A stretch of 64,000 nucleotides of DNA, from positions 1 through 64,000 of the forward strand of contig JAAYCN010000017.1 of the NCBI GenBank assembly GCA_012729755.1. Direction: 5' to 3'. The translations under genes and the position numbers were made by a program. A model generated the notes under the pieces. That model ran no database searches and was not told the origin of the DNA. It saw only the letters and a list, made by a program, of their open reading frames with translations. Below are positions 26,447 to 50,295 of the stretch, piece by piece. Positions within the stretch are counted from its first letter, which is position 1. Each line of letters opens with the position of its first letter. This stretch comes from Chloroflexota bacterium. Its GTDB lineage: Bacteria; Chloroflexota; Anaerolineae; Anaerolineales; Anaerolineaceae.

Positions 26447-26477
26447 GCGAGGGTCAGAGTTATCTGACCCTCGCTTT
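26447..26477 (+). terminator. Rho-independent terminator after the CPGS-like gene
   Basis: GCGAGGGTCAGA-GTTA-TCTGACCCTCGC-TTT (12-bp perfect stem). Confidence 0.85.
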
Positions 26478-26512: not shown

Positions 26513-27778
26513 ATGTTTTTGGATTCAGTGATCATTAACGTGCATTCGGGCAAAGGCGGGGATGGCATGGTGCATATGCACCGCGAGAAGTACCGCCCGC
26601 GCGGTGGCCCGGATGGGGGCGATGGCGGCAGGGGTGGCAGCGTCATCCTCGAGGTCCAGGCGACTCTGAACACGCTTAATAAGTTTCATTACAACGAAGA
26701 ATACAAAGCCCCCGCGGGGAAAAATGGCGGCCCCTCGAACCGTTCGGGGAAGGCAGGAAAAGACCTGATCATCCAAGTGCCGCCAGGGACAATTATCTAC
26801 AATAACGAAACGCTTGAGCTGTTGGGCGACCTGGTAACGTCTGGCCAACGGCTGGTGGTAGCCAAAGGCGGCAGAGGCGGCAGGGGGAATCAGCACTTCG
26901 CGAGTTCTCGAAATCAGATGCCGCTGACGGCAGAAAAAGGGGAGCCAGGCGAAGATCTCGCTATCAGGCTTGAATTGAAGCTGATTGCGGACGTCGGGTT
27001 GGTTGGCATGCCAAACGCGGGAAAATCGTCGATTTTAGCTGCCACAACCAATGCCCGTCCCAAGGTGGCGAACTATCCCTTCACCACTTTGGAGCCTAAT
27101 TTGGGTGTGGTAGAGCTTGACCCGGAACATACCATGGTGATGGCGGATATCCCCGGCCTCATTGAAGGCGCCTCAGAAGGGGTTGGCCTGGGTTTTGACT
27201 TTTTAAGGCATGTCCAGCGCACGCGGGTGTTAATTCACGTGCTGGATGGCATGTCAGAGGACCCTGCAGGTGATTACGAAACGATTAACAATGAGCTGGC
27301 GCTGTTTGATGATCGTCTGGCAACTCTCCCGCAGGTGGTCGTTCTCAATAAGATCGACCTGCCGGAAGTTCAGGCGAAATATGATCGCTTGCGGCAAGTG
27401 TTTGCCGATGAAAATGTTGAATTATTCTCCGCTTCGGCGGTGACTCATCAGAATATGAGAGAGTTGATGTGGAAAACCTGGCAAGTGCTGCAGGACGCGC
27501 CGATCCCTGAAGCAGAAGAGGAAATGCCGGTCTATCGCGCACTCGAGGATCCAAAAGCGTTTCAAGTCTTTGAAGACGAGGACGAAGAGGGGTGGCGTGT
27601 GACCGGGAAGATGATCGAACGCGCTGCCGCGATGACATACTGGGAACAACCTGGCTCAGTGCGGCGCTTCCAGCGGCTGATGAAAGGTTTGGGAGTGGAT
27701 AAGGCTTTGCGTGAAGCTGGAATTCAAGAAGGTGAGACCGTTCATATTGGTGAATGGGACTTGGAGTGGGTGGATTAG
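26513..27778 (+). CDS. obg: GTPase Obg/CgtA
   Basis: MFLDSVIINVHSGKGGDGMVHMHREKYRPRGGPDGGDGGRGGSV, GLVGMPNAGKSSILAATTNARPKVANYPFTTLEPNLG; C-terminal OCT domain. Confidence 0.97.
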   Translation: MFLDSVIINVHSGKGGDGMVHMHREKYRPRGGPDGGDGGRGGSVILEVQATLNTLNKFHYNEEYKAPAGKNGGPSNRSGKAGKDLIIQVPPGTIIYNNETLELLGDLVTSGQRLVVAKGGRGGRGNQHFASSRNQMPLTAEKGEPGEDLAIRLELKLIADVGLVGMPNAGKSSILAATTNARPKVANYPFTTLEPNLGVVELDPEHTMVMADIPGLIEGASEGVGLGFDFLRHVQRTRVLIHVLDGMSEDPAGDYETINNELALFDDRLATLPQVVVLNKIDLPEVQAKYDRLRQVFADENVELFSASAVTHQNMRELMWKTWQVLQDAPIPEAEEEMPVYRALEDPKAFQVFEDEDEEGWRVTGKMIERAAAMTYWEQPGSVRRFQRLMKGLGVDKALREAGIQEGETVHIGEWDLEWVD

Positions 27779-40025: not shown

Positions 40026-41178
40026 TATTTCCCACGATTGAACCACTGTGGGATATGTTCATTACGATTCCCAAGGCTGCCATAGTGGTGACCATGCTCG
40101 ACCCACCCGCGCTGATTAGCGGGAGGGCGTTCCCGGTGAATGGGATCAGGCCAACGATCACGGCAATATTCATCAGCGCTTCCATAACAATCCAGGCAAT
40201 CAGACCAAACGACAAAAGCGAACCTAACTGGTCGGGGGCGCGCTTTGAGATCACCAGACCGCGCCACAACATGCCAATGTAAAGCAGAATAAGGATAAAG
40301 CTGCCAACGATGCCGGTCTCTTCAGCGATCACCGCGAAAATGCTGTCGGTGTGGGGCAGGGGCAAGCCGGTGAACTTGGTCGTTGCCTGACCAATGCCCA
40401 CGCCGAACATGCGGCCTTTAATGACCGCTTCAAAGGTGCGGCGGATGTGATAAGAGCCCATGACAGGGTCCTGGAGACCATTGAAATATTGTTCGATTCT
40501 GGCTTTTCCTGTCGATGTGGCTGCGACGACCGCGCTGCCTACCACTATGACGATCAGAAAAACTACAATCAGCTGCTTCCAGTCACCTCCGGCAATAAAA
40601 AACAGCATAATGCCCAGGATCATGATCGTCGCAGAAGCTGAATAATCGGGTTGAAGGAAGATTAAACCGGCAATAAAACCCAGAATGACCGCCAGAGGCA
40701 ATAGCCCGAGGGTGACCGATTTCAAATTTTCCTGTTTATTCGATAGCCAGAACGAAAGATAGATGATGATGCCAAGTTTGGAGAGCTCAGATGGTTGGAT
40801 GGAACCTCCAAACAGGGCGCGAGTTGAATTGAAGCGAACTTCGCCTTGCAGCAGGACTACGATGAGCAGTAAAACCACCACGCCCATCATGTAAACAAGA
40901 AATTTGCTGTACCTGTGATAGTCGAAAAAGCTGGCAAACAGGAAAATCGCAATTCCCGCCAGAACAAAGAGCAATTGACGGGTAAAAACATAGGTTGTCG
41001 GTTTGTTGATCAGGATGGAGGCGTCCCAACTGGAGGAATACACCATCAATAAACCAAAAACCAATAAACAAACGACAATCAACAACAATGGTACGTCGAA
41101 TGGAAGCTTCGCAACCGCGCTGACGCGCGCGGATGGCATCGAAGTAGAGGAAGGACTTACATAAGTTCGTTCACCCAT
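39928..41178 (-). CDS. ftsW: Lipid II polymerase / cell division protein FtsW
   Basis: SEDS family: PFDVPLLLIVVCLLVFGLLMVYSSS, SELSKLGIIIYLSFWLSNK, GSYHIRRTFEAVIKGRMFGVGIGQATTKFTGLPLPHTDSIFAVIAEETG, PFTGNALPLISAGGSSMVTTMAALG. Confidence 0.95.
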   Translation of the reverse strand: MGERTYVSPSSTSMPSARVSAVAKLPFDVPLLLIVVCLLVFGLLMVYSSSWDASILINKPTTYVFTRQLLFVLAGIAIFLFASFFDYHRYSKFLVYMMGVVVLLLIVVLLQGEVRFNSTRALFGGSIQPSELSKLGIIIYLSFWLSNKQENLKSVTLGLLPLAVILGFIAGLIFLQPDYSASATIMILGIMLFFIAGGDWKQLIVVFLIVIVVGSAVVAATSTGKARIEQYFNGLQDPVMGSYHIRRTFEAVIKGRMFGVGIGQATTKFTGLPLPHTDSIFAVIAEETGIVGSFILILLYIGMLWRGLVISKRAPDQLGSLLSFGLIAWIVMEALMNIAVIVGLIPFTGNALPLISAGGSSMVTTMAALGIVMNISHSGSIVGNNERSFAGAFVDLRGRDGRRGISSADRGPENAN

Positions 41179-42545
41179 TTTCGATAACATTCTCCTCTCT
41201 CTTCGAAATCTTTAAAAGCGTCATAGCTTGTGCCTCCCGGCGAAAGCAGGACAATATTGCCCTCCGCGACCTGATTCGCTGCTGTCTTAACAGCCTCCTG
41301 AAGGGTCGCGCAGCGCACGACAGATTGAAGGTATTGGCCGCGTTTTTTAGGCCCAATGGCGTTAGAGATCAGGTCTGCCGCTTCGCCAAACAGGATCACT
41401 CGGAAGACTTTACGACGGATGACATCAGCCAGTTTCTCCCACGGCAAGTTTTTATCGCGCCCACCCAGCAGCAAAATGATAGGCTCATCAAAGGATTCGA
41501 TGGCCGCCAGGGTTCTTTCCGGGGCGGTGGCGATTGAGTCGTTGTACCAGCTGGCTCCTTTGAATTCGCGGACGAATTCGAGGCGATGGGGCACGCCGGT
41601 AAAATTTTCCACCGCTGATTGGATGGCGGGTAGAGCCAGGCTGGCGCTGGCGGCGATTGCGCTTGCCGCTAAAACATTGTAGACATTGTGCTTGCCCCGC
41701 AGCTGAATCCAATCGAGCGGGAACATTTTCAGGTTGTCCTTGCCGATTTTCAGGCAAACATGTTCGCGATCGATATAGCTACCGTTCTCACTGCCAGGTG
41801 GTTTGTGGAAGCCAAAACTGATCAGATCAGATTTAACTGAGTTCTGTAACGCCCATGAACCCGGATCGTCGCGGTTGAGAATGGCGACATCGCCCTGCTT
41901 TTGATAGAGCAGAATGTTCGCTTTGGCAGCGGCATAGGCTTCCATGGTGAGATGACGGTCAAGGTGGTTGGGGGTCAGGTTGATTACCGCAGCAATCTGA
42001 GGCGAACGAGTCATCAGCTCGAGCTGGAAGCTGGAAAGCTCCAGAACGACGAGGTCATCTTCTCCTATTTCATCCACATGATCAATCAGCGGGTTGCCGA
42101 TGTTGCCACCCACCCAGACTTTAAATCGTTCCCCCTTCATCTCATTGAAGCGGGTAGCCATCAGACCGACCAGACTAGTCGTGGTGGATTTACCCGCAGA
42201 GCCGGTTATGCCAATCACTGTTGCCGGACAGGCTTCAAGAAAAATCTGTGAGTCGTTTGAGAGTTTGATGCCCTGGGCGGTGGCTTCACGCACGAAGGGC
42301 AGCGCCAGAGAGACACCCCCGGAGAGGCAGAGCAAGTCGGCCCCAGTCAGTAAAGCGGGATCGTGGCCGCCCAGCGACAATTTGACGCCAGACGCACATA
42401 AGTCACTCAGGGAGCCAATTTGGTCTTCTGTACGGTTGTCGGTCAGAGTAACCTGAGCGCCATGCTCAACCAAATAGCGGCTTAGGGCGGTTCCCTGGCG
42501 GCCGGCTCCGATGATGATAACATGTTTTCCACTAAAGTTTTGCAT
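41157..42545 (-). CDS. murD: UDP-N-acetylmuramoylalanine--D-glutamate ligase
   Basis: VIGITGSAGKSTTTSLVGLMA, LELSSFQLELM, NLTPNHLDRHLTMEAYAAAKANIL, LLGGRDKNLPWEKL, LLSPGGTSYDAFKDFEERGECYRKWV. Confidence 0.96.
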   Translation of the reverse strand: MQNFSGKHVIIIGAGRQGTALSRYLVEHGAQVTLTDNRTEDQIGSLSDLCASGVKLSLGGHDPALLTGADLLCLSGGVSLALPFVREATAQGIKLSNDSQIFLEACPATVIGITGSAGKSTTTSLVGLMATRFNEMKGERFKVWVGGNIGNPLIDHVDEIGEDDLVVLELSSFQLELMTRSPQIAAVINLTPNHLDRHLTMEAYAAAKANILLYQKQGDVAILNRDDPGSWALQNSVKSDLISFGFHKPPGSENGSYIDREHVCLKIGKDNLKMFPLDWIQLRGKHNVYNVLAASAIAASASLALPAIQSAVENFTGVPHRLEFVREFKGASWYNDSIATAPERTLAAIESFDEPIILLLGGRDKNLPWEKLADVIRRKVFRVILFGEAADLISNAIGPKKRGQYLQSVVRCATLQEAVKTAANQVAEGNIVLLSPGGTSYDAFKDFEERGECYRKWVNELM

Positions 42546-42547
42546 AA

Positions 42548-43543
42548 TTATCCCAAAAACGTCAACGCGAATCCCAACATCGCGCTGATCAACGCGATCA
42601 ACCAGAAACGCAGCACGATTTGATTTTCCTGCCAGCCGATCATCTCAAAGTGATGATGGATGGGGGTTTTTTTGAAAACTCGCTTGCCGTGAGTGGCTTT
42701 AAAGTAGAGTACCTGAATGACAACGCTGAGTATCTCAGCCGTCGGGATGATGGCAATCAGCGGCAAAAAGAGCCAGCGACCGGTCATCAGCGCGACTACT
42801 GCCAGTGAAGCGCCAAGCGCCTGAGAACCTGTATCACCCATATAAAGCCCAGCTGGTTTAACATTGAACCACAAAAACGCGGCGAGAGCCCCAACAAGCG
42901 CGAAGCAGAAACGCGCCAGGTAAATTTGCTCCTGGGTGAGCGCAATGACGCCGTAGATACCGAAGGCGGTGAGAGCGATCATGCCAGCCAGACCATCGAT
43001 GCCATCAGTAAAATTAACGGCATTGGCCATGGCGACGATGATAAAAGTCGCGATAACGAGATAGCCCCAGCCAAATTCGAGCGGTACGGGTGAAGAGGGC
43101 CAGAACAACTGCGGGACGTCCAGCACCCACTGCAAGATATAGGCGACAACAAGCGCGATGACTACTTGAAGGATGAACTTGGTGCGTGAGCGCATCCCCA
43201 AACCACGTCGAGGGCCACGGATGCCTTCCCAATCATCGATCGCGCCGATTATCGCAAAGCCCCACATTGTGCCAAGGGGAACGAGGATTGAGTTGCCGAG
43301 CAGCGGCGAACCAAATAATGAAACGGCATTGAAGATGACGGTCAACAGAGTGACAGGCAGGAGGAACATAAACCCGCCCATCGTGGGGGTGTTCATTTTT
43401 GCGAGGTGAGATTCGGGAACATCGACGCGGATGATCTTGCCGATCTTGAATTGACGCAGCAGGCGGATGAAGGGGTCGCCCCAAATCACAGTCAGTAAGA
43501 AAGCGATACCGCTGATTGCAATTGGGAGGGAGGTGCTTTCCAT
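42548..43543 (-). CDS. mraY: Phospho-N-acetylmuramoyl-pentapeptide-transferase
   Basis: KMNTPTMGGFMFLLPV, NFTDGIDGLAGM, YMGDTGSQALGASLA, TPIHHHFEMIGWQENQIVLRFWL. Confidence 0.96.
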   Translation of the reverse strand: MESTSLPIAISGIAFLLTVIWGDPFIRLLRQFKIGKIIRVDVPESHLAKMNTPTMGGFMFLLPVTLLTVIFNAVSLFGSPLLGNSILVPLGTMWGFAIIGAIDDWEGIRGPRRGLGMRSRTKFILQVVIALVVAYILQWVLDVPQLFWPSSPVPLEFGWGYLVIATFIIVAMANAVNFTDGIDGLAGMIALTAFGIYGVIALTQEQIYLARFCFALVGALAAFLWFNVKPAGLYMGDTGSQALGASLAVVALMTGRWLFLPLIAIIPTAEILSVVIQVLYFKATHGKRVFKKTPIHHHFEMIGWQENQIVLRFWLIALISAMLGFALTFLG

Positions 43544-43544
43544 G

Positions 43545-44972
43545 TTATTGATTCTCCTCAAGCGCAGCTACGATGGTTTCAAGATGCATGCAATGCGAGC
43601 CTTTTATCAGCGCGATATCGCCTGACTGCAAAGTATCCATCAGGTACGGAATGGCTTCAGCAGCCTGCGCATACCAATGTATTTTTTCGGGTTTGAAACC
43701 GGATGAAATGGCCGCCTGACGCGTAATCGTGGAACGTTCGCCGATCAACACCAGTTCGTCAGCCACCTCCGCCGCACGCCAGCCGACCTTTTGATGGCCT
43801 TCGTCTTCATATTGGCCAAGTTCGAGCATGTCTCCCAGGACAGCCACCTTGCGGCCGCCGAGGTCTCTGAGCAGGTTGAGCGCGGCAACGGTCGAATCAG
43901 GCGACGCATTGTAGCTGTCATCGATCAGACGAGCTCCGGATTTGGTGTTGACGGTGACAATGCGAACCTGAATTGGCATGTCTTTGAGCGCAAAAAATAT
44001 CCAATCCCAACTGATGCCGAACTTCAATGCTGTGGCAACAGCGCGCAGCATGGTGTAAACCGAGTGGCGTCCGATTAAGGGCGCGGTCAGATAGTTTGAT
44101 TCGCCGCGATAATGCATGCGGCAGCGTACCCCTTCGAGGCCCATACTTTCGATCTCATCTGCCCATAGGTCCGCCTCTGGAGACAAACCGTAATAAAAGA
44201 CCTCCGCTTTGGTCTTGGATGCCATCTCTCTGACCCGGGTGTCATCATAGTTGAGGATGGCAAAACCCGTTGGGGCAGGGGGAAGCGCTTCAACCAGTTC
44301 GGCTTTGCCCTTGGCAATCACCTCGATGGAACCTGCGCGCTCAGCATGAACTGTGCCGACGTTGGTGATAATGCCGATTTGGGGATGGGCGATATCACAT
44401 AGCAATTTAATCTCACCGGGCACATAAAAGCCCATTTCGAGTACAGCGACTTCATGCCGGCTATTCAGCTTGAGCAGGGTCAGTGGGAGGCCGATTTCGT
44501 TGTTTTGATTGCCTTCACTGTGCAGGGTGACGAGGCGGCGGGAGAGGATCGACCAGACCAGATCTTTGGTAGAAGACTTGCCGACGCTGCCGGTAATGCC
44601 GACAACTTTGAGATTAAACTGCTCGCGCCACCAGGTCGCAATGCGCTGAAGCGCCTCAAGAGAATTGGCAGTCAGCAGGCTGAAAGGTTTGTTTTCGGGC
44701 AAGACCAATGGTGTTTTGGAGAGATCAACGATCGGGAATTCAGAGATAATCTCGTGATCGATCAGCGCCAGTGACGCGCCTTTTCGCAAGGCATCATCAA
44801 CATAGAGATGACCATCCGTATTTTCGCCGGGCAGGGCGATAAAGAGATCGTTTGGTTTGACATTGCGAGAATCGATAGAGCCCCCATCAATATTGAAGTT
44901 GAAGGGAGGTTCAGTTTCGCCGACCAGAGCGGTCAGCACATCACGCAGGGTAAGTGTTCGCACAGCCATCAT
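43545..44972 (-). CDS. murF: UDP-N-acetylmuramoyl-tripeptide--D-alanyl-D-alanine ligase
   Basis: VVGITGSVGKSSTKDLVWSIL, LHSEGNQNNEIGLPLTLL, LIDDSYNASPDSTVAALNLLRDL, AVLGDMLELG, LIKGSHCMHLETIV. Confidence 0.96.
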   Translation of the reverse strand: MMAVRTLTLRDVLTALVGETEPPFNFNIDGGSIDSRNVKPNDLFIALPGENTDGHLYVDDALRKGASLALIDHEIISEFPIVDLSKTPLVLPENKPFSLLTANSLEALQRIATWWREQFNLKVVGITGSVGKSSTKDLVWSILSRRLVTLHSEGNQNNEIGLPLTLLKLNSRHEVAVLEMGFYVPGEIKLLCDIAHPQIGIITNVGTVHAERAGSIEVIAKGKAELVEALPPAPTGFAILNYDDTRVREMASKTKAEVFYYGLSPEADLWADEIESMGLEGVRCRMHYRGESNYLTAPLIGRHSVYTMLRAVATALKFGISWDWIFFALKDMPIQVRIVTVNTKSGARLIDDSYNASPDSTVAALNLLRDLGGRKVAVLGDMLELGQYEDEGHQKVGWRAAEVADELVLIGERSTITRQAAISSGFKPEKIHWYAQAAEAIPYLMDTLQSGDIALIKGSHCMHLETIVAALEENQ

Positions 44973-46759
44973 TGGCTCGCTTTCTCCATGGGTTGGGCAG
45001 CGTTCAGACGGACGTCATCGGGGGGGATTTCCATAAGTACAACCAGATTGGAAACCAACTCAGAAAAAACAGGCGAGACGACTTCGGAGCTCCAGATTGA
45101 GGATTTTGGTTTCTCGAGCCAGATATAAACCAGGAACTTTGGGTCTTGAGATGGTCCCCAGCCAACGAAGGAGGCGTTGGTTTCAGAGCTGCTGTACCCG
45201 AAGGGGGGAACAGCGATTTCGGCCGTGCCCGTTTTGCCTGCTACTGAATAGCCATCCACCAATGCGGCGGAAGCTTCGTTTTTTAGTGAATTGGTCAACA
45301 TCTCCGTTACTGTATGAGCGGTTTCACGTGTTATCGGGTTACCTACAACTACAGGTTTTACCTCATACTGTTTGCCATCGATGATCATGGCTTTAACCAC
45401 GTGTGGCGCCATCATCTGACCATCGTTAGCGAGCGCTCCGGATGCCATCACCATTTGGATGGGGGTTACGGAAATACCCTGCCCGTATGAGTTGGTCGCC
45501 AGATTGGCATCCCACCAATTTTCGTCACCCGGCAGAGCCAGCGGCCAGTTGTTCTCGCTGCCGAGATCTATCCCGGTAATGCGGTCAAAACCGAAGGCTT
45601 TAACATAGGAGTAGAAACGGTCAGGCCCAAGCTGTGTCGCAATCCAGGCAAGACAGACATTCAAAGAATGCTGCATGCATCCGGTCATATCCTGAGTGCC
45701 CCAGGCGCCGCGATCCCAGTTGTAAACAGTAGTCCCACCGACGGAAATCGCGCCTGTATCTTCGAATGTAGTTTCGGGCTTGATGGCGCCCGCGTCTAAG
45801 GCGGCAGCCAGAGTGATGATTTTGAACACAGAACCTGGTTCGTAGGTTTCGCTGACAGCTTTGTTGAACGGGGTGGTATTGGTGAAGGTCTCAAGGTATT
45901 TCCAATATTCGTTTGGATCAAGCCGTGGGGTTGAGGTCATGGCTATGATGCTGCCGTCTTCGGGGTTTGAGATAACGATCACGCCAGACACGGCGCCAGA
46001 GTCTTCCAGCGCTTTGTCGAGTACGTGTTCAGTCATGGCCTGAATTTCTCTATCGAGGGTCAATATCAGGCTGGCGCCTGGCGGGATTTCGTCGATATCC
46101 GAAATCTTTTGCGGATCAAAAGCGGTGTAAACCTTTTTTGGGGTGCCGGCGAGAAGGGTATTATAGGTTTCTTCAACCCCATAATATCCGATGCCCTGGG
46201 CACGGTCTAAGAAGCCGTAAAAGCCGAGGACGTTGGAAGCGAGCATGCCTTCCGGATAGCTGCGCTTGTCGTGAGGGGTCCACATCAGCCCGTCCAGACG
46301 GGGACGTGTTTCGTTGTTTTTCAGAACGCGATTTTCATATTCATCGCGAATAATTTCGAGTTGGGCGACTTTTTCTTTTGAGACGAACCCATTTAAGGTT
46401 ACGTACACTGGGTTGTCACCGCCGGGGGTCATCTGGGCGTAGGTGAGCGTTTGCATGTAGTCGAGCCCTAACACTGAAGAGGCTACCGTGGCAATGGTTT
46501 CAGGCTGTTTGACGCTGGCCAGGTCGATTCCGACTTCATAAATTGTTTCATTGCCGGCCAGTAAACGACCCTGGTCATCGTAGATGTTTCCGCGTTCCGG
46601 ATAAATGGTCTGAGTGACTCCCTGATAGAACTGACTCTGATCAAGAATCTGCTGAGCGCCAGGAATGTGCTGAATGCGCACCATCTGCACGCCAACAGCG
46701 ACAAAAAGCAGCGTGAATGAGACGCACACCAGCCAAAATCGGATCAGGTTTTGTTTCAT
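44969..46759 (-). CDS. ftsI: Peptidoglycan transpeptidase FtsI / penicillin-binding protein 2
   Basis: N-terminal TM, YEPGSVFKIITLAAALDAG (SxxK), HSLNVCLAW (SxN), GKTGTAEIA (KTG). Confidence 0.94.
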   Translation of the reverse strand: MKQNLIRFWLVCVSFTLLFVAVGVQMVRIQHIPGAQQILDQSQFYQGVTQTIYPERGNIYDDQGRLLAGNETIYEVGIDLASVKQPETIATVASSVLGLDYMQTLTYAQMTPGGDNPVYVTLNGFVSKEKVAQLEIIRDEYENRVLKNNETRPRLDGLMWTPHDKRSYPEGMLASNVLGFYGFLDRAQGIGYYGVEETYNTLLAGTPKKVYTAFDPQKISDIDEIPPGASLILTLDREIQAMTEHVLDKALEDSGAVSGVIVISNPEDGSIIAMTSTPRLDPNEYWKYLETFTNTTPFNKAVSETYEPGSVFKIITLAAALDAGAIKPETTFEDTGAISVGGTTVYNWDRGAWGTQDMTGCMQHSLNVCLAWIATQLGPDRFYSYVKAFGFDRITGIDLGSENNWPLALPGDENWWDANLATNSYGQGISVTPIQMVMASGALANDGQMMAPHVVKAMIIDGKQYEVKPVVVGNPITRETAHTVTEMLTNSLKNEASAALVDGYSVAGKTGTAEIAVPPFGYSSSETNASFVGWGPSQDPKFLVYIWLEKPKSSIWSSEVVSPVFSELVSNLVVLMEIPPDDVRLNAAQPMEKASQ

Positions 46760-47241
46760 GGGCTTACCTCGATCGGTGCAACCTGCGACGCGACTGGCGC
46801 CTGCCACACCTTGTCTTTAAGCCAATCCCACAGTGATGAGGTGAACTCGGGCAAGAGGACTTGAGCGGTAACCGCGTCAACGCTCGGCGGGGGAGCCATC
46901 ACGACTGTTGTGCGCGGTTCATAGCCGGGTACTTCTACATACAAAGCCTGATGGGGATTCACTTCAACCATGTCGAGCTTGGCAAGGCGGTCATAAAGCG
47001 TTTTGGCAGAGGAAGCCTGAGCAAGTTGCGTGTTAAGATCATTGATGTTGAGTTTGAGGGCGGAGATATCCATTTCGAGGTTCTGAATGCGCCGCCCAGT
47101 CGCAGCGGTTCGGCCTGAAATGGATAGGTAAATTCCAGCCACAGAAGCGATTATTACCAACACGACCAGGAAAATGCCAATCCACTGGAGCTGCATGCGC
47201 CAGGGGGCTTGTCGATATGCCTGGAAAAATGTCGTCTTCAT
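46756..47241 (-). CDS. FtsL-like bitopic coiled-coil protein
   Basis: Single TM then coiled coil (RIQNLEMDISALKLNINDLNTQLAQASS); lies between rsmH and ftsI, the usual ftsL slot. Confidence 0.65.
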   Translation of the reverse strand: MKTTFFQAYRQAPWRMQLQWIGIFLVVLVIIASVAGIYLSISGRTAATGRRIQNLEMDISALKLNINDLNTQLAQASSAKTLYDRLAKLDMVEVNPHQALYVEVPGYEPRTTVVMAPPPSVDAVTAQVLLPEFTSSLWDWLKDKVWQAPVASQVAPIEVSP

Positions 47242-47244
47242 AGT

Positions 47245-48210
47245 TCAACTCCCTGCAGCTTTCATGCCAAAGGATATTTTTTCCACTACCCGGAGTTTTG
47301 CGCTGCGAGCTCTGGGATTTTGGTTCACCTCGCCCTCAGTTGGTAAGACCGGATGAGGCGTGAGAACTTTTACGCTGGCTTGATGATCGCATGTGCACAC
47401 CATTTGTTCTGGCGGACAAATGCAGTCACGACTGGCCAGTCTGAAAGCTTGCTTTATCAGGCGATCCTCGAGGGAGTGAAAGCTGATAATGGCAAGCCGC
47501 GATTTCGGTTGTAAGAGGTCAATCAATTCGGGGATAGCCCGTTCGACGGTTTGCAGTTCCTGGTTCACCGCGATGCGCAACGCCTGGAACGTCCGTGTGG
47601 CTTGATCCTGACGTTCCCTGGTGCGGCCAACCGCAGATCTGACGACATTGGCAAGTTCGAGGGTGGTGGCGAAAGGACGGTTGGTGACGATCTGACGGGC
47701 AATGCGCTTCGAAAAATGCTCCTCTCCAAAGCGCCAGATGATGTCGGCCAGCTCTTGCTCATCCAGCTTGTTCACCAGATCGGCAGCGGTTTGGCCGCTG
47801 GTTGGGTCAAACCGCATATCGAGGGGGGCGTCAAATCTGAAGGAGAAACCTCGTTCCGCCTGGTCAAGCTGCATTGAGGACAAGCCGAGATCCATGACGA
47901 TGCCGGCGACCTGGTCTCTTCCGAGGTCTGCCAGAAACTTGCGCGCATCAAGATAACTGCCATGGCAGACATGCGCTCGATTGCCAAACTCGACAAGGTT
48001 GACTTTCGTCAGCTCAACTGCTGTCGGGTCGAGATCAAGGCTGAGCAATTCACCGTTGGGGCAGCTTGCCTCGAGGATGCCTCTTGAATGTCCTCCTGCC
48101 CCTGCTGTGCAGTCCAGATAAAAGTTTGGACTGGAGGGTGCGATGAAGTCGATAATTTCCTGATAAAGTACCGGACGATGGGGAGAGGTGGCTTGAGAAC
48201 CGGGCTTCAC
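47245..48210 (-). CDS. rsmH: 16S rRNA (cytosine(1402)-N(4))-methyltransferase
   Basis: HRPVLYQEIIDFI, DCTAGAGGHSRGIL, VMDLGLSSMQLDQAERGFSFRFDAPLDMRFD, RTFQALRIAVNQEL, IISFHSLEDRLIKQAF. Confidence 0.97.
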   Translation of the reverse strand: MKPGSQATSPHRPVLYQEIIDFIAPSSPNFYLDCTAGAGGHSRGILEASCPNGELLSLDLDPTAVELTKVNLVEFGNRAHVCHGSYLDARKFLADLGRDQVAGIVMDLGLSSMQLDQAERGFSFRFDAPLDMRFDPTSGQTAADLVNKLDEQELADIIWRFGEEHFSKRIARQIVTNRPFATTLELANVVRSAVGRTRERQDQATRTFQALRIAVNQELQTVERAIPELIDLLQPKSRLAIISFHSLEDRLIKQAFRLASRDCICPPEQMVCTCDHQASVKVLTPHPVLPTEGEVNQNPRARSAKLRVVEKISFGMKAAGS

Positions 48211-48653
48211 TACTCACCCCTTGTGGTCAGATCAAACGCCTGCCAGCGGTTTTCGTCGGCGTTGGGATCATTGAGGCGCATTTCCTGTTCTTTCCAGGCG
48301 TCGACTGCCCAAAGCTCGAACGAGTCGCCAATGCCGACAATTACAACGGATCCTTTGATCTGCGCCATCTCGCGCAGGCGGGCTGGCACAAGAATGCGCC
48401 CGGCTGGGTCATAACTGAGCTCGGCTGAATTACTGAAAATCTTACGGCGCAGTTCGCGGGAGGCCGGATTGGTAATTGAGGTTTTGGCGAGATTGGCCGC
48501 AATCGCCTCAAAATGTCGCTTGGAATAAACAGAAAGGTTGTGGTCAAAGCCTTCGGTCACGAACACACCGTCAAGCGTTTGCTCGCGGAAGTTGGCCGGG
48601 ATGGTGATGCGGCCTTTTGCGTCCAGATTGTGTTCGTATTGTCCAAAGAACAT
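48210..48653 (-). CDS. mraZ: Transcriptional regulator MraZ
   Basis: MFFGQYEHNLDAKGRITIPANFREQTLDGVFVTEGFDHNLSVYS, ELSYDPAGRILVPARLREMA; start at 48653, not 48725 (which lies in the repeat/promoter region). Confidence 0.95.
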   Translation of the reverse strand: MFFGQYEHNLDAKGRITIPANFREQTLDGVFVTEGFDHNLSVYSKRHFEAIAANLAKTSITNPASRELRRKIFSNSAELSYDPAGRILVPARLREMAQIKGSVVIVGIGDSFELWAVDAWKEQEMRLNDPNADENRWQAFDLTTRGE

Positions 48654-48710
48654 TTGTTCCACTTTTCCTTTAATCGGCGAAGCGCCGGTGACCCAGCGCT
48701 CCTTCAATTT

Positions 48711-48774
48711 GACACTTTGTGACACTTTATGACATTATTTCCCACATTATAGGTTAAAACAGCTAAAAATGCAA
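48711..48774 (-). promoter_or_regulatory. dcw promoter with MraZ-type 10-bp direct repeats
   Basis: Minus strand TTGCAT (48769-48774)-N17-TATAAT (48746-48751), then ATAAAGTGTC ACAAAGTGTC in exact 10-bp phase with AAATAATGTC and ATAATGTGGG (plus-strand decamers GACACTTTGT GACACTTTAT GACATTATTT CCCACATTAT). Confidence 0.8.
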
Positions 48775-49092: not shown

Positions 49093-50295
49093 ATGGCTAC
49101 ACCGACTGTACTAAATGACCGTTACCAACTGCAGCAGACTCTCGGCACGGGGGGCATGGCTTTGGTTTATAAAGCTAAAGACCTGATGCTTGAGCGGCAC
49201 GTTGCGGTTAAGGTCCTGCGCGAAGATTTTAGCCAGGATGTCGCTTTTAGAGAACGCTTCAGACAGGAAGCTAAGGCGGCAGCAAATCTTTCTCATCCGA
49301 ATATTGTCACAGTGCATGATTTCGGCCTCGACCAAGGACATCTGTTCATTGTTATGGAATATATGTCTGGGCAGGATCTCAAAACATATATCAAGCAGAA
49401 GGAACGTTTTTCGGTTGCGGAGACGCTTGAGCTGATGATCCAGGCTTGTCAGGGGGTCGGCTATGCTCATCGGGCTGGGCTGGTGCATTGTGATATCAAA
49501 CCACACAACATGCTGGTCACTCCTGAGGGCCGGCTGAAAGTAACTGACTTTGGTATCGCCAGGGCACTATCGACGATATCGCCCGAGGAGCATAATGATG
49601 TGGTTTGGGGCTCGCCGCATTATTTCTCACCTGAACAGGCAAGTGGTCTGCCACCTTCGCCTGCTTCAGACGTGTATTCGCTGGGTGTGATCCTGTATGA
49701 AATGCTGACTGGCAGGGTGCCGTTTGTGTCATCCAGTTCGAGCGAATTGGCTCGTATGCACCGCGAAGAGACGCCCGTTTCACCGCGCACTTATAACACC
49801 TCTATTCCCAGTCAGCTCGAAGAGATCATCCTCAAGGTGCTCTCAAAAGAGCCGGCCGCCCGCTACCGCACTGCGGATCAACTGGGAAGGCTCCTGCAGG
49901 GTCTCTATCAGAGCAATCCCTCGCTGAAGCGGTCAGTGCCGTTTGTTTACGACACTTTTCAGGCGCTCTCAAACGCTACCGGTCCTCATATAACCCAGAC
50001 TGGTCAACAGGTGGTCAAACCTTATCAACCGCCTCAGGTGCCCGTCGGTGAAAGTCAACGGGTTATTCGCCCTGGCGTCACCGAGTCAGAAATTGCCACT
50101 GCCTACCAGCCAGACGCGGCGAAGCAACCCAAGGCGGTTAAACTGCGCAAAGGCGGCGCGCAGCCGAGACCAAGCGCCCCCAAGGCTGAGGAAGAGGTGG
50201 ATTGGAAAACTTGGCTATTGGGCATCGCGGCGTTTGCCAGCCTGTTTGGCCTGATTCCTTTCTGGTTATATGTCTATACCGTGCTCAAACCTTAG
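49093..50295 (+). CDS. Hanks-type serine/threonine protein kinase with C-terminal TM helix
   Basis: YQLQQTLGTGGMALVYKAKDLMLERHVAVKVL, HCDIKPHNMLVTPEGRLKVTDFGIAR, SPEQASGLPPSPASDVYSLGVILYEMLTGRVPF; C-terminal IAAFASLFGLIPFWLYVYTV. Confidence 0.95.
   Translation: MATPTVLNDRYQLQQTLGTGGMALVYKAKDLMLERHVAVKVLREDFSQDVAFRERFRQEAKAAANLSHPNIVTVHDFGLDQGHLFIVMEYMSGQDLKTYIKQKERFSVAETLELMIQACQGVGYAHRAGLVHCDIKPHNMLVTPEGRLKVTDFGIARALSTISPEEHNDVVWGSPHYFSPEQASGLPPSPASDVYSLGVILYEMLTGRVPFVSSSSSELARMHREETPVSPRTYNTSIPSQLEEIILKVLSKEPAARYRTADQLGRLLQGLYQSNPSLKRSVPFVYDTFQALSNATGPHITQTGQQVVKPYQPPQVPVGESQRVIRPGVTESEIATAYQPDAAKQPKAVKLRKGGAQPRPSAPKAEEEVDWKTWLLGIAAFASLFGLIPFWLYVYTVLKP

Follow-up and report, generated by a model that had tools for sequence, protein, structure and literature searches.

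MraZ operators and leader RNAs of the dcw cluster have been described in other bacteria. In Burkholderia cenocepacia, MraZ binds four 7-nt repeats with 3-nt spacers that lie downstream of the -10 element, over the transcription start (PMC7761207). In mycoplasmas the repeats have the form AAAGTG[T/G] (Fisunov 2016, cited in PMC8475190), and the dcw cluster is derepressed without MraZ (PMC8475190). As for leader RNAs, UpsM of the Rhodobacter dcw cluster is 206 nt long and has a terminator at its end, within a leader of 268 nt (PMC5089854), and structured standby sites have been studied with synthetic E. coli 5' UTRs (PMC3936740). Here we describe a mraZ locus from the Chloroflexota where, as judged from comparative sequence analysis, it is highly probable that two things hold together: the promoter region carries an ordinary autoregulatory MraZ operator with the published layout, and the leader carries a hairpin that is a selected RNA structure.

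The locus lies in a 64,000-nt stretch of DNA, referred to as the window (positions 1 to 64,000 of contig JAAYCN010000017.1, GenBank assembly GCA_012729755.1). Its genus is that of Candidatus Mesolinea (Anaerolineaceae, Anaerolineales, Chloroflexota); a Candidatus Mesolinea assembly (L118), the best relative with a name, has the same leader and MraZ N-terminus, as printed, as locus L089 from the window's genus. The features of the locus are collected in Table 1. The mraZ product contains PF02381 in two stretches with a D-x-x-G-R loop in each half, as is characteristic of the MraZ family, and its nearest PDB matches are 1n0e (MraZ of M. pneumoniae) and the further MraZ entries 9qlg, 9qlr and 9sx6. 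The list of open reading frames had placed the mraZ start at 48725, which the preliminary description rightly rejected: this is merely the mechanical first GTG of the frame, and homology runs from the ATG at 48653. Orthologues begin at the equivalent ATG, and in about half of those from the order an in-frame stop is found within 72 nt upstream.

Table 1 Features of the mraZ locus and dcw cluster, with the extra leader-element copies of genome G228.
Feature	Position	Strand	Basis or remark
-35 element TTGCAT	48769..48774	-	sequence reading; CTTGC conserved in genus at 17-nt spacing
-10 element TATAAT	48746..48751	-	identical in 25/25 genus members
MraZ box 1 ATAATGTGGG	48741..48750	-	overlaps -10; GTG[G/T]G kept in most of genus
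MraZ box 2 AAATAATGTC, degenerate	48731..48740	-	contains predicted transcription start near 48739
MraZ box 3 ATAAAGTGTC	48721..48730	-	sequence, genome pattern count, genus conservation
MraZ box 4 ACAAAGTGTC	48711..48720	-	sequence, genome pattern count, genus conservation
Leader RNA hairpin GGAGCGCTGG-gtca-CCGGCGCTTC	48702..48679	-	24-nt stem-loop; folding, covariation, covariance model
Shine-Dalgarno-like AAGGA	48666..48670	-	single-stranded stretch after hairpin; conserved TTAAA-purine stretch
TGGAAC, the genome's form of hexamer TAGAAC	48656..48661	-	-8 to -3 before start codon
mraZ	48210..48653	-	PF02381 in both halves, 110.6 bits (cut-off 23); start ATG 48653
rsmH (mraW)	47245..48210	-	PF01795
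Small FtsL-like protein	46756..47241	-	weak coiled-coil match only; identity inferred from gene order
FtsI-type penicillin-binding protein	44969..46807	-	PF00905, PF03717
Mur ligase, probably murF	43545..44972	-	PF08245, PF02875; name inferred from gene order
mraY	42548..43561	-	PF00953; name from gene order
murD	41157..42545	-	PF21799, PF08245
Extra leader-element copies, G228	L191:668-723, L191:1068-1116, L193:593-648	-	two of them ~400 nt apart

Upstream of mraZ, the minus strand reads TTGCAT-N17-TATAAT (48774-48746) and runs straight into an array of decamers. Measured against the sigma-70 consensus, the -10 element matches at 6/6 positions and the spacer is 17 nt (16-18 nt in the consensus), while TTGCAT shares only 3/6 positions with TTGACA. 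The coordinates, spacer and perfect -10 of what had been called a textbook promoter thus stand, but with so weak a -35 the word is too strong. A mechanical promoter scan that required at least 4/6 matches in the -35 did not list this promoter; CTTGC is the clade's own conserved -35. Judging from the position of the -10, transcription would start near 48739, which predicts a leader of ~85 nt. A plus-strand TTGACA-N18-CATTAT (48709-48738) also lies within the array, facing the divergent Ser/Thr protein kinase gene at 49093-50295; such a match is at chance level (0.7 expected).

Direct reading of the minus strand from 48750 to 48711 gives four decamers in exact 10-bp phase, at the coordinates already proposed. 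As expected of MraZ boxes, they repeat directly every 10 bp around a GTG core, over and just downstream of the mraZ -10. The proposed overlap with both the -10 and the predicted start site holds as well, with box 1 sharing bases of the former and box 2 holding ~48739. Boxes 3 and 4 match AAAGTG[T/G] exactly (PMC8475190), which bears out the earlier likening of AAAGTGT-N3-AAAGTGT to the Mollicutes box pattern. This pattern has a single exact match in the 2,225,670-base genome, at 48712-48728. When up to two mismatches were allowed, its counts in the same genome equaled those of a reversed-pattern control, and further MraZ arrays in this genome were rejected, none rising above control counts.

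The preliminary description, which covered 48711-48774, identified the MraZ array but missed a conserved hairpin directly downstream, between the array and the start codon, with its 3' end 25 nt before the ATG. A strong stem was found at this leader position in nearly all of 90 genomes of the order; outside the order, 5/39 genomes exceeded the 95th shuffle percentile, where 2 are expected. From loop centre to start codon the distance is 37.7 nt (sd 0.72, range 36-40), while that from loop centre to the -10 varies with an sd of 13.1. Because the stem-loop is thus held at a fixed distance from the AUG and not from the promoter, a role in ribosome binding is the best-supported inference, and we give about an even chance to the hairpin acting at the ribosome. 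The stem-loop, which leaves the Shine-Dalgarno stretch free, would serve there to position or insulate the start site or as a standby element, and not as a terminator. Shared descent, with few indels in so short a stretch, could be a partial cause of the fixed distance.

The hairpin might instead shield the mRNA from degradation at its 5' end and be unconnected with ribosome binding. An mRNA can be protected by a stable 5' stem, and the predicted 5' end is a mere 35-40 nt or so from the hairpin; however, its distance to that end varies (sd 13) while that to the AUG is steady, so that 5'-end protection, though possible, leaves the fixed spacing unexplained, and we regard it as rather unlikely. 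Far less probable is an intrinsic terminator or attenuator of the cluster, for which one could cite the GC-rich stem within a dcw leader and the published precedent of the Rhodobacter UpsM leader with its terminator (PMC5089854). Here, no T-tract follows the stem, a terminator scan gave no call, the sequence beyond the stem has a TTAAA-plus-purine consensus, and the spacing is locked to the start codon rather than to the promoter; together these make such a function very improbable.

Several lines of evidence point to a structure maintained in RNA. In an alignment of 72 leaders, double changes were found in all 12 modelled pairs and 87.5% of the cells paired, where shuffling gave 80.7% and sliding the partners no more than 47.3%; the covariation score was 0.316 against 0.199. 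Unguided, RNAalifold recovered the inner eight pairs. The helix is thus supported by covariation, as expected of a structured cis RNA leader. When G-T and A-C mismatches were scored equally, the 90 genomes of the order had 80 G-T and 5 A-C mismatches, and further families had 25 and 4. Since G-T so far exceeds A-C (80:5), the simplest reading would be that the mRNA strand is under selection. That the inverted repeat is instead a DNA operator for another dimeric regulator, and not an RNA structure, is suggested by its near-perfect palindromic core (CGCCGG...CCGGCG), but is just as improbable as termination: a loop that ranges from 3 to 8 nt among relatives would alter the spacing of the half-sites, the mismatches are strand-asymmetric, and the stem sequence is replaced in some genomes with pairing kept, as at L058, where it is wholly different (GAAGGTCGGA with TCCGACCTTC).

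A covariance model of the hairpin (R1) gave one strong match in the window's own genome, of 54 bits, the next best scoring 21. Matches were found in 73/101 sampled genomes of the order, one in each except G228, which has four, and in a phylum-wide sample in 13/151, all 13 from the order; none was found in 138 sampled genomes outside the order, five of the same class included. In 25/27 matching loci from families outside the training alignment, mraZ lies directly downstream and box arrays upstream; the two without mraZ downstream are both from G228. Loci of the non-training families also show covariation (in an alignment fitted to the model), and in 28 of their genomes, a set that leaves out two genomes with other best stems, the loop centre is 38.1 +/- 1.0 nt from the start codon. 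Genomes missed by R1 mostly have diverged stems (L223, L224, L225, L229, L232), and in some the hairpin is lost (L226, L227, L228, L230). It is absent from family f56 and from one genus of f47, so it is not essential everywhere. That such a hairpin precedes every gene was rejected, with only 2/47 other genes of the window scoring at least 20. Searches against Rfam gave no match at gathering score for six loci and nothing above any gathering score for the window, where the mraW RNA motif RF01746 was absent at E up to 10.

Other hairpins came to light alongside these results. G228 carries three extra copies of the leader element near other ORFs, each with the hairpin, a TTAAAGGGG-like tail and a TAGAAC-like hexamer. 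The window's own genome has a hairpin, TCAAAACGCCGG-gacga-CCGGCGTTTTGA, followed by TTTAAG, at L153:1501-1544 (C55:74237-74280); it is a weak R1 match of 21 bits, and no mraZ was found near it. On the plus strand of the window, a perfect 12-bp inverted repeat, GCGAGGGTCAGA-GTTA-TCTGACCCTCGC (26447-26474), lies upstream of an ORF at 26513 and is perhaps the terminator of the preceding gene or another leader element.

A transcript from ~48739 would carry boxes 3 and 4, the hairpin, TTAAA with AAGGA, the conserved T[A/G]GAAC hexamer and the AUG. Two explanations of the hexamer were rejected. That the TAG of TAGAAC closes a conserved upstream ORF failed on inspection of the frames, and the window has TGGAAC; TAGAAC as a general start signal in these genomes failed as well, most matches to the pattern being mraZ itself. 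The hexamer can pair with the first codons (GGAAC-AAAU-GUUCU, 48647-48660, minus strand) in a possible mini-stem at the start codon, and this pairing, of GAAC with GUUC of codons 1-2, is present in the lowest-energy fold of the window. The codon evidence is mixed: codon 2 is TTC in 53/54 family members against a background of 0.49, but in only 7/25 genus members, and the sister family has GCAC. The mini-stem is a lead.

For the MraZ array, we took the regions upstream of mraZ from 25 genomes of the genus, 54 of the family, 11 of the sister family and 39 others of the phylum. Pairs of GTG[GT] at spacing 10 numbered 26, 130, 23 and 72 in these four sets, against shuffle expectations of about 0.1, 0.7, 0.2 and 1.0. 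Spacings of 10, 20 and 30 were all strongly over-represented; spacings of 9 and 11 in the same sets showed no comparable excess. Conservation before orthologous mraZ, which the preliminary description had left to a motif scan, is thus found across the Chloroflexota: the 99th shuffle percentile is exceeded by 98-100% of the genomes in the genus, family and sister family and by 92% of those from elsewhere in the phylum. Most arrays have 3 or 4 boxes and a few have 5 or 6, the first lying on the -10; 24/25 genomes of the genus, 43/54 of the family and 11/11 of the sister family agree in their phase to TATAAT. The least credible of the alternatives, that the decamers are a regulator-free promoter-proximal repeat, maintained solely because the -10 region requires it, draws on the bases that box 1 has in common with the -10, but boxes 3 and 4 lie beyond the predicted start with cores conserved as well as the -10, the array is tied to mraZ throughout the phylum, and similar repeats bind MraZ elsewhere (PMC7761207).

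The autoregulation of the whole cluster that had been predicted appears likely, and the best explanation of the array and TTGCAT/TATAAT is that they form the autoregulated main promoter of a dcw cluster in this member of the Anaerolineaceae. A triple-box scan of 81 genomes of the order matched mostly the mraZ promoter itself, so in this order MraZ seems to regulate only its own cluster; matches away from mraZ were few, scattered and similar to the control. In 6/39 distant phylum members (loci L059, L061, L064, L065, L069 and L079), TGTGGATAA, a perfect DnaA box sequence, stands before mraZ, within the arrays or close to them; this could be chance, given that GTGG boxes alternate with AT-rich spacers, or could connect DnaA with dcw.

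The array had been described as a hybrid, part Mollicutes-type and part E. coli-type, a view that the relatives do not support: boxes 2-4 represent a GTGTC variant, found throughout the genus, of the GTGG box seen in the family, and box 1 keeps the GTG[G/T]G form and has bases in common with the -10. Boxes 3 and 4 are GTGTC in 23-25 of the 25 genus genomes per position, compared with GTGG plus a variable base in the family, and box 1 retains GTG[GT]G in most of the genus. Both D-x-x-G-R loops of MraZ (D-A-K-G-R and D-P-A-G-R) also differ between genus and family, residue 12 changing from E/D to K/A and residue 83 from K/R to T/S. A simple residue-83 code for the box change (K/R to T/S) was rejected, with distant relatives that have A, G or S keeping GTGG; the genus is moreover one clade and hence one event. 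The shift from GTGG to GTGTC alongside changes in both loops is a lead only, which would offer a natural switch in box specificity to test with a small conserved regulator.

From what has been published on Burkholderia (PMC7761207) and mycoplasmas (PMC8475190), we propose that MraZ, expected to sit on the four GTG decamers, which follow one another at each helical turn along a single face of the DNA and cover the -10 and the start, would exclude RNA polymerase. By analogy with these systems, binding and repression at the array would set the level of mraZ-rsmH-ftsI-murF-mraY-murD and the downstream genes. The leader RNA, with its hairpin, free Shine-Dalgarno stretch, TAGAAC box and AUG, would in turn set how much of the cluster's repressor is made; it might do so by docking on the 30S subunit, always at one place, or through a trans factor that it binds. 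We are evenly divided on this full scheme of two-level dcw control in the Anaerolineales, with MraZ at the promoter, a leader RNA governing the initiation of mraZ translation, and the genus operator shifting from GTGG to GTGTC together with both loops.

The kind of MraZ operator found here is already known; this one has a lineage-specific box, and the operator is extended to a phylum for which we found no earlier description. It resembles the mraZ operators of B. cenocepacia dcw and E. coli in its GTG core, its 7 nt plus 3-nt spacer, its four copies before mraZ and its place beyond the -10 and across the start site, and differs from them in the box AAAGTGTC and the conserved leader hairpin; the E. 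coli mraZ leader is 38 nt, compared with the ~85 nt predicted in the window. In the Mollicutes the likeness reaches the protein: in M. pneumoniae MraZ, A stands where residue 12 would be and T where residue 83 would be, which comes close to K/A and T/S of the genus. The Mollicutes, however, are a distant phylum, and the rest of the window's family has GTGG boxes; the likeness therefore probably arose separately.

As far as we found, in literature that included few subscription journals, the hairpin is an undescribed, order-specific leader RNA, a compact element at the head of the cell-division cluster. RF01746 of the Actinomycetales (PMC2864571) is likewise a conserved structured RNA named for a dcw gene, but the element in the window is a different, order-specific hairpin whose position is locked to the start codon. 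With UpsM it shares the setting of a structured 5' mraZ leader confined to one lineage; unlike UpsM, it is one short hairpin with no terminator. It is like the structured standby sites in having a hairpin upstream of a Shine-Dalgarno stretch with a defined single-stranded stretch between. In contrast to those studied elements, it is natural and conserved across an order at a nearly fixed spacing, and a clear prediction about translation initiation follows from how little its distance to the start codon varies.
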